Source: Halorientalis sp. IM1011 (GTDB lineage Archaea; Halobacteriota; Halobacteria; Halobacteriales; Haloarculaceae). Taken from it: 64,000 nucleotides of DNA. The notes under the pieces are model-generated. The model was not told the DNA's origin and searched no databases. It worked only from the letters and a program-made list of their open reading frames with translations. The position numbers and the translations under genes were made by a program. Location of the stretch: positions 1,550,001 through 1,614,000 of the forward strand of contig NZ_CP019067.1 of assembly GCF_001989615.1 (NCBI RefSeq), read 5' to 3'. Positions 15,547-16,488 of the stretch are shown piece after piece. Each line of letters begins with the position of its first letter. The stretch's first letter is position 1.

Positions 15547-16488
15547 TCAGGCGCTGTCGGGGATGGGGTCTGCGATGACGACGGCTTCGCCGTCGATCAC
15601 CTCGTCGCCGTCGGTGCGGGCGGTAGTCGTCAGGCGGTAGCGGTCGTTCCCGAGGTCCTCGACGACCTCGCACTCGGCGGTGACCTCGCTGCCGATGTCG
15701 ACGGGGCCGAGGAAGGAAGTGTCCTGCGAGAGGTAGACGATGAGGCCCGGCAGTCGGGCTAAGGCGGCGCTGACGACGCCGACCACGAGCGTCCCGTGGG
15801 CGATGGGGCGGCCGAAGCGGGTCCCCTCGGCGTAGTCGGCGTCGAGGTGGAGGCGGTTGGTGTCGCCGCTGGCCTCGGCGAAGGCCTCCACGTCCTCCTG
15901 TGAGAGCGTCTTCGTGAACTGCACCACGTCGCCGACCTCGATGCGGTCGTCGTGGGGGCCGAGGCTCTCGAACTCCCACTCGTCGCGCTCGTAGGCGGTG
16001 TCGACGCGTTCGCGGTGGTGGCGGTCCCCGGACGGTTCCACACTGGCCGTCGCCCGGCGGCTGAAGTGAGGCAAGTAGTAGGAGAGGTCGGTCGTCGTGA
16101 CGATGCCGACGAGCTCGCCGTCGCCGGACTGCGTCCGGCTGCCAGAGGCGCTTCGCGCCTCGCTGTCGTCGGTCACGGGGAGTTTCTTGATCGTGTGCTC
16201 GCGGAAGAGGTCGACGGCCGCCTCGATCGGCTCGTCGGCGTCGACGGTGACGACCGGCGTGGACATGCAGTCGGCGGCAGTCACGGTACCAGTGTCGTGG
16301 CCCCCGGCCACGAGGGCGACCACGTCCGATTCGGTGACGATACCGACGGGGTCGCCGGCTTCGACGACGACGGCCGAGCCGATATCCTCACCGTGGAGCA
16401 GTTGAGCGACCGCAGTGGCGTCGAGGTCGGGATCGATCGTCTCGACTGTCGAGTTCATCACTTCGCGGACGGTAACGGGCACGAGCAT
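15547..16488 (-). CDS. CBS-pair and MaoC-like hotdog hydratase fusion
   Basis: A 313-residue fusion. CBS domain 1 spans residues ~5-58, CBS domain 2 ~68-137, and a MaoC/R-specific enoyl-CoA hydratase hotdog domain ~180-313. The hydratase-2 motif is complete: ASGDTNRLHLDADYAEGTRF followed by GRPIAHGTLV, with the catalytic Asp and His of the D-x-N-x-x-H pattern. The CBS pair likely senses an adenylate (AMP/ATP/SAM/CoA-like) and regulates acyl-CoA hydration. The second CBS domain carries a 13-residue insertion encoded by two adjacent palindromes (16123-16161). Domain fusion is clear; regulation is inferred. Confidence 0.88.
   Translation of the reverse strand: MLVPVTVREVMNSTVETIDPDLDATAVAQLLHGEDIGSAVVVEAGDPVGIVTESDVVALVAGGHDTGTVTAADCMSTPVVTVDADEPIEAAVDLFREHTIKKLPVTDDSEARSASGSRTQSGDGELVGIVTTTDLSYYLPHFSRRATASVEPSGDRHHRERVDTAYERDEWEFESLGPHDDRIEVGDVVQFTKTLSQEDVEAFAEASGDTNRLHLDADYAEGTRFGRPIAHGTLVVGVVSAALARLPGLIVYLSQDTSFLGPVDIGSEVTAECEVVEDLGNDRYRLTTTARTDGDEVIDGEAVVIADPIPDSA
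16123..16161 (-). repeat. Double palindrome inserted in frame in the CBS-MaoC gene
   Basis: Two perfect hairpins abut with a 5-nt spacer. On the minus strand the first is GAGGCGC-GAA-GCGCCTC (16161-16145), the second GCCGGAC-GCA-GTCCGGC (16139-16123). Together they are 39 nt, exactly 13 codons, encoding EARSASGSRTQSG between TDDS and the normal DGELVGIVTTTDL continuation of the CBS fold. Both loops are GNA triloops closed by C-G. Confidence 0.7.

Follow-up and report, generated by a model that had tools for sequence, protein, structure and literature searches.

Palindromic repeats that sit in frame inside many unrelated genes are known as Rickettsia palindromic elements, or RPEs (PMC10969869, PMC3733652). 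Besides Rickettsia, some other bacteria also have in-frame palindromic elements. RPEs are ~150 bp long (PMC10969869). RPE-4 and RPE-6 are CGTC repeats and RPE-1 makes longer insertions (PMC3733652), and Di Nocera et al. (2013) tied RPE-4/6 to the CGTC-tagged REPs, noting intragenic copies and no transposase (PMC3733652). The CGTC-tagged REPs, spread over five bacterial phyla, have stems of 8–9 bp with AT pairs first, loops of 4–5 nt and head-to-head dimers (PMC3733652). Haloarchaea have short repeats of their own. The PATEs of Haloquadratum walsbyi are transposase-free and palindromic and lack inverted terminal repeats; terminal-only PATEs measure 52 bp, and PATE palindromes resemble IS605 ends (PMC3119063). 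The SMR-A of the same organism, ~110 bp, has inverted terminal repeats and inserts in near-terminal palindromes of IS605-type elements (PMC3119063). All of this is drawn from those portions of the papers that were available to us, and the comparisons we make with them are limited in the same way.

The locus we compare with these systems lies in the genome of Halorientalis sp. IM1011, within a stretch of 64,000 nucleotides that we call the window (GC content 68%). A first-pass annotation, made from the letters alone, had pointed to two perfect GNA-triloop hairpins, 5 nt apart and together 39 bp long, inside a gene for a CBS-CBS-MaoC protein (Table 1). The hairpins are there as described, with GAA and GCA as their triloops on the coding strand, and the peptide that they encode, EARSASGSRTQSG, is flanked by LPVTDDS and DGELVGIVTTTDL in CBS domain 2. 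The same annotation took the insertion to be these 39 bp, adding 13 residues, and here it fell short: empty orthologues are shorter by 45 bp, or 15 residues. With a GAC flanking the insertion at either end, its exact limits may be shifted by 3 bp, and 16123-16167 is an alternative placement. In the structure that AlphaFold predicts for the host protein (mean pLDDT 81.9, pTM 0.49), the insert lies between strands 102-107 and 125-131, in a loop. Its pLDDT drops below 50 at residues 115-121 and, if the model is a guide, the insert is probably disordered, a low-confidence extension of the loop. A search of solved structures for the insert gave no significant match.

Table 1. The host gene, the insertion and its parts in the window
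Feature	Position	Strand	Basis
Host gene, CBS-CBS-MaoC protein, 313 aa	15547..16488	-	Pfam CBS (two stretches) and MaoC
45-bp insertion, AGC + 39-bp double hairpin + GAC	16120..16164	-	Empty orthologous sites
39-bp double-hairpin core, encodes EARSASGSRTQSG	16123..16161	-	Covariance model match, 78.7 bits, E 2.6e-24
Hairpin A, GAGGCGC-GAA-GCGCCTC	16145..16161	-	Perfect 7-bp stem; compensatory variation
5-nt spacer, TGGCA	16140..16144	-	Family form NNGNA, itself a filter in unit selection
Hairpin B, GCCGGAC-GCA-GTCCGGC	16123..16139	-	Perfect 7-bp stem; compensatory variation
CGTC adjoining foot of hairpin B (coding strand: GACG)	16119..16122	+	Compared with the CGTC tag of PMC3733652

How does this unit measure up to the systems described before? 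Like an RPE, the haloarchaeal palindrome sits in frame in unrelated genes, and the likeness to RPEs drawn in the first-pass annotation stands as far as the way of working goes. Kinship has not been shown, and the length is wrong: in place of the much longer element of Rickettsia we have a 45-bp double hairpin with 7-bp stems and 3-nt loops. With the CGTC-tagged REPs, judged from the accessible text, the unit shares a CGTC at a hairpin foot (the REP tag being CGTC, TGTC or CCTC), a same-strand tail ending in CCA, intragenic copies and the absence of any associated transposase found. In 70 of 77 units hairpin B has GAC at its foot, although some loci were found using a pattern that contained it. 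The stems do not fit, those of the window's unit being 7 bp long with a GC pair first and 3-nt loops, and the same register holds in alignment A1, where it was filtered. Head-to-head dimers predominate among the CGTC-tagged REPs; the two haloarchaeal hairpins lie side by side, some of their units were seen to follow head to tail in 45-bp steps (we did not count arrangements), and they occur in archaea; in what was available of PMC3733652, the word archaea appears only among the references.

The PATEs and SMRs are haloarchaeal and transposase-free, as our units are, and SMR-A has a further likeness in that our units too are found inside end-like palindromes of IS605-type elements. PATE palindromes resemble IS605 ends, and the unit's hairpins differ from those end-like hairpins that we saw at Y1 transposase loci (IS ends were not mapped). 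The SMRs are 80-110 bp with inverted terminal repeats whereas our 45-bp unit has two different hairpins. In-frame insertion is not among the subjects of the part of PMC3119063 open to us, whose 'in-frame' passages concern stop codons and table notes only. REPs and REPINs with their RAYTs are also short hairpin repeats that form clusters and presumably move as single-stranded DNA. We saw no GTAG tag in the haloarchaeal unit. REPIN-type repeats flank a Y1 (RAYT) gene as its ends; the pairs of hairpins close to Y1 genes that we inspected have the look of insertions, a matter that is unsettled. The terminal inverted repeats of a MITE are missing, the unit's two hairpins differing in sequence.

Might two such hairpins simply have arisen by chance in GC-rich coding sequence? 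Single 7-bp triloop hairpins are indeed about as frequent in the window as they should be (15 against 12.4 expected from a third-order Markov model, so no excess), which is what a chance origin would predict. An exact second copy, a dispersed family, empty alleles and covariation have already refuted it, and we give it practically no weight. In 300 kb of fourth-order Markov sequence there was no pair of triloop hairpins (stems of at least 6 bp) exactly 5 nt apart, one pair at a spacing of 6 nt and one at 7 nt; the loci that we fetched, most of them chosen for holding the unit, contain 67 distinct pairs at 5 nt. C(GNA)G loops in DNA are unusually stable. Folded as DNA, a 49-nt stretch across the hairpins has a minimum energy of -17 kcal/mol (z = -3.1), equalled by one of 200 shuffles. 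The centroid fold is exactly the two hairpins, to which the minimum-energy fold adds a few outer pairs.

The 39-mer is present twice in its own genome. The second, identical copy lies 1.1 Mb away in a CBS domain of another protein, and a reversed pattern used as a control found nothing. When up to 3 mismatches are allowed, copies appear in 10 of 146 genomes of the family (control 0) and in 42 of 392 genomes of the order, representing 17 of its 95 genera; every row of the reversed control stayed at 0. From a collection of 84,980 species, an exact degenerate pattern picked out 71 stretches; 69 carry haloarchaeal names or Halobacteriales MAG titles and the remaining two belong to one unclassified Euryarchaeota MAG. 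Five plasmid records out of 72,556 match, all haloarchaeal, four with an annotated gene under the match and one without annotation, and two patterns run against viral contigs gave no match. A covariance model built from 39 hand-chosen units returned, at E<=0.01, 19 matches in the genome of origin, 13 with E below 1e-6; across the 12 chosen genomes the number ran from 10 to 110. Only 150 candidates were scored per genome, and matches near the limit may be chance. The window itself has one unit; besides its own reverse strand, the next covariance match is at E 0.005. The unit is one member of a variable double-hairpin family.

Genomes differ in how richly they are stocked. G434 has 90 model matches in 2.8 Mb, many of those classified being in frame and four in an antisense frame. 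At Halorubrum loci (L038, L039, L041, L060-L069, L071-L075 and others), many non-coding units are adjoined, in either orientation, by a second repeat (GAGGCTGGGGAGGCGTGAGGTGCGG...GGTGGGACTCAAAGGGGCAG), for which Rfam gave no match in the tested loci.

Evidence that the unit is an insertion comes from its host gene. A search with the CBS-MaoC protein matched 56 of 58 relatives, and we aligned 23 loci, the window's included. Three have the insert, all from Halorientalis, and 20 do not, though in three of the 20 this loop is extended by residues unrelated to the insert. Four empty alleles (L106, L108, L109 and L110) are shorter by exactly the 45 bp already mentioned. We extended the comparison of filled and empty DNA to 13 genes, choosing the empty alleles ourselves: of 37 comparisons, 27 differ by net exactly 45 bp, seven by 42 or 48, and three are not clean (L158 and L174 have indels of their own; L180, compared for the gene of L017 and given the label PolB with no family test behind it, failed to align). 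The cleanest pair is L092 and L162, with near-identical flanks. A net 45 bp makes the inserted unit AGC+39+GAC or a cyclic variant of it. Tandem copies step by the same 45 bp, for example at G044:C1:1071749/1071794/1071839 and G402:C23:65480/65525/65570. There is no clear target-site duplication, and from the empty sites one could span no more than 1-3 bp; PATEs are characterised by the lack of one. We rejected the idea that GAC is the target: most sites agree with it, but at L092 and L011 no GAC precedes the insert. Decayed copies of the unit exist too.

The empty sites at orthologous positions show that the unit was inserted. The first-pass proposal of a small palindromic element inserted in coding sequence is borne out by these empty orthologues and by the dispersed copies, coding and non-coding, in the organism's own genome and across its order; it would have failed had all orthologues shared the residues or had no copies been found elsewhere. 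That such elements are tolerated remains inferred.

Insertion is not the only way in which the repeat could have reached this gene. Gene conversion or horizontal transfer between alike CBS domains might have put it there. The genome's two copies occupy corresponding positions in two CBS domains, agree letter for letter over 50 bp and align locally over 74 columns at 93%, and a third CBS-like stretch, at a contig end (L054), also carries the repeat. At several sites, moreover, inserts are identical or nearly so despite diverged flanks, which could reflect horizontal transfer, conversion or re-insertion. This last comparison is biased, the copies having been found by their likeness to a consensus, and because of that ascertainment we do not take it as proof of constraint. 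Conversion between similar genes cannot, however, explain each first arrival of a unit carried by 27 Pfam families. We consider it unlikely as the origin of the repeat here, though gene conversion may explain the CBS pair alone.

Same-site inserts turn up in other gene families. In DUF302-like genes (L031, L050, L084, L094, L097, L100) and in DUF309-like genes (L006, L008, L013, L019, L024, L055, L103) they occur in different genera or families, with flanks that are far more diverged. These may mark a hot spot, transfer or conversion, and we cannot resolve which. At the C-terminus of a histidine kinase (L009, L366, L368), two Halorientalis species have units with different stems in the same loop, one of them decayed, through either recurrent insertion or conversion between paralogues.

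The stems of the family change, and they change in pairs. Among 93 copies collected with no pairing filter, we counted 29 double stem changes, every one of them Watson-Crick, against 3.8 expected, along with 28 one-sided changes and no two-sided change without pairing. Alignment A1, whose rows were pre-filtered for pairing, is 98.4% paired (slides, 32-41%) and has 39 cells changed on both sides, a number matched by 0 of 500 shuffles; alignment A2, with rows fitted to the model, is 99.4% paired with 145 double changes. By one of five covariation measures, further pair types, A2 is not above its shuffles (127 of 500). The unit of G044 at L208 has wholly different, AT-rich stems and an unchanged architecture, and some other units have stems longer than 7 bp. 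The pairing reaches into the protein. Amino acids 2 and 5 of the peptide co-vary, as A-A in 46, E-S in 22, G-P in 20 and other combinations in 3 of 91 copies (a set that required at least 6 of 7 pairs), and on the evidence of the codons alone these linked residues are the product of complementary codons.

Preserved pairing would also be expected if the hairpins were a functional nucleic-acid signal (an RNA structure, a nucleoid-protein site or a recombination site) selected at each place. The closing C-G pair, present in 77 of 77 units, points the same way, but weakly, the search patterns having had C and G there. Against such a signal, few species have the unit at the 13 compared genes, and relatives that we fetched lack it; it occurs across unrelated genes, often within coding sequence; decayed units exist; and no Rfam family matches it. 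At the gathering score, Rfam found only archaeal RNase P RNA (in L060) among 12 loci, and there was one chance match in the window stretch. We regard a selected signal as quite unlikely.

What does the unit do to the proteins that carry it? The 93 distinct copies, selected by pattern, comprise 51 that are strictly coding in the sense frame, 33 non-coding, eight unclear and one antisense. GC3 and an open frame defined the coding class; a looser classification gave 57 and turned L018, the sole antisense copy of the strict set, into a sense one, and L017 was counted as non-coding in the strict set though its frame is open. The second set, 49 of 56 model matches in 45 loci (mostly from G434 and G044), has 25 confidently coding copies: 20 in sense frame 0, four antisense in phase and one antisense out of phase. 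All six frames of the 39-mer are stop-free (L001, L008), so the frame bias is not only a matter of avoiding stops. Stops nonetheless leave a mark. A second loop of the form xTA, which gives TAG in the sense frame, is found in none of the 51 coding copies and in 26 of the 33 non-coding ones (Fisher p 1e-15), with the proviso that the copies are not phylogenetically independent and the non-coding ones come mostly from a few Halorubrum genomes.

The Pfam scan covered 31 host proteins, 28 of which scored above the cut-off, with 27 distinct best families. They include pyridine nucleotide-disulphide oxidoreductase, adenylosuccinate synthetase, the aconitase family, class I tRNA synthetase (W and Y), ribosomal protein L2, M32 and M20 peptidases, 5-FTHF cyclo-ligase, PspA, HerA, a DNA polymerase X-like protein, a chemotaxis receptor and a histidine kinase. 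No Pfam family was found for L092 (an RPAP-like protein) or L099, and L018 was below the cut-off. Several hosts we take to be LeuC, Lpd, RPAP, YyaL, PolX and TyrRS.

So strong a preference for one frame (51 of 52 strictly coding copies, L018 being the exception, and 20 of 25 in the second set), together with a peptide rich in Ser and Gly, might suggest that the peptide itself is selected as a protein tag or linker. Yet there are coding copies in antisense (the five of the second set, and L208), many non-coding copies have a stop in the sense frame, and residues 2 and 5 change jointly as DNA pairing dictates. Selection of the peptide strikes us as very unlikely.

If the unit moves, which enzyme moves it? 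It is too small to encode one. Y1 transposase matches occur in nine of 11 unit-bearing genomes, and two have none. Of 27 Y1 match loci, some cut by contig ends, seven have a hairpin pair and five a model match, three of these strong; none of these loci in the 11 genomes tied a moving enzyme to the unit, with the caveat that the mapping of IS ends was not systematic. Only in L208 did we see a Y1 match with a hairpin pair to either side. At this locus (L208:1501-1874, G044), a Y1 transposase is lengthened in frame by the 15 residues of a diverged, AT-rich unit (HFVWC-[15]-PKYR), an antisense coding copy that is absent from six relatives, and a second pair lies just behind the transposase gene in an apparent, interrupted end palindrome. 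Given their places, the first within the transposase frame and the second breaking up a palindrome of end-like form, these pairs look like passengers. In the window's own genome, at L199 (161-213), L371, L372, L375 and L376, the unit lies inside the end-like palindrome of IS200/605-like elements, some of which may be copies of one unit-carrying IS, and a related double hairpin interrupts L192 relative to L191. Units in end palindromes and in tandem arrays suggest that the unit prefers other hairpins, as a passenger and not as a transposon end. Parentage by an IS200/605 element was considered and rejected, since the end-like hairpins that we saw are unlike the unit's, again without systematic mapping of IS ends.

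We judge it highly probable that these 39 bp form the core of a short palindromic repeat, a single copy from a mobile haloarchaeal family, and that this copy was inserted within Halorientalis; its non-autonomous movement is an inference. We have demonstrated dispersal, presence and absence at orthologous sites, the 45-bp size and tandem 45-bp steps, compensated stems and a strong bias to one frame. The unit that we propose would measure 45 bp: after a variable triplet come a 7-bp hairpin whose loop has 3 nt, the 5-nt NNGNA spacer, a second 7-bp hairpin and, last, GAC. It would have entered the ancestor of the CBS-MaoC gene within Halorientalis, in the loop that joins two strands of CBS domain 2, lengthening the frame by 15 hydrophilic residues. 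We infer that it moves as a non-autonomous, REP/RPE-like element, probably as single-stranded hairpins processed by an enzyme supplied in trans, an enzyme that we have not shown. For such trans-mobilisation we see about even chances, the alternative, also inferred, being template switching in replication. The in-frame copies would be those tolerated by purifying selection: a length of 45 bp leaves the frame intact, and what the sense frame encodes is hydrophilic and rich in Ser and Gly. Tolerance is inferred, and a benefit to the host has not been shown.

A broader reading, which we could argue either way, is that this is an order-wide haloarchaeal class of protein-coding palindromic DNA. Its double-hairpin architecture would persist through compensated stem changes, and base pairing in the DNA would thereby impose linked pairs of amino acids on unrelated proteins. 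Even a transposase, a tRNA synthetase and ribosomal protein L2 would be among those entered. For its movement the class would rely on a system that handles hairpins, with no dedicated transposase, and that system may target other hairpins, as in tandem units and IS end palindromes.

We found no earlier description of the haloarchaeal double-hairpin family in the open-access literature; most subscription papers and all preprints were outside our scope. The word 'halo' is absent from the main text of PMC12306157, so far as that text was available. The family would be a clear archaeal counterpart of the bacterial in-frame palindromic elements, and the first as far as our open-access search shows. 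It lengthens many haloarchaeal proteins. With units in housekeeping genes of haloarchaea that are harmless and in some cases cultured, as named strains, both movement and the tolerance of proteins become testable. TQSGDGELVGIVTTTDLSYYLPHFSR is an example of a peptide that would mark a translated insert, translation itself not having been shown. The family also puts into natural protein data an amino-acid covariation that does not stem from contacts within proteins at all, and coevolution methods could be misled by it.

Two further observations concern the host proteins. By predicted translation, two or three tandem 45-bp units stand in frame inside one protein, clearly so in L083 and L095 and less clearly in L364 and L267. 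In a Halobacteriales MAG (L005, G032:C11), a unit lies in frame at codon 97 of the 288-aa ribosomal protein L2, which matches both Ribosomal_L2_N and Ribosomal_L2_C.
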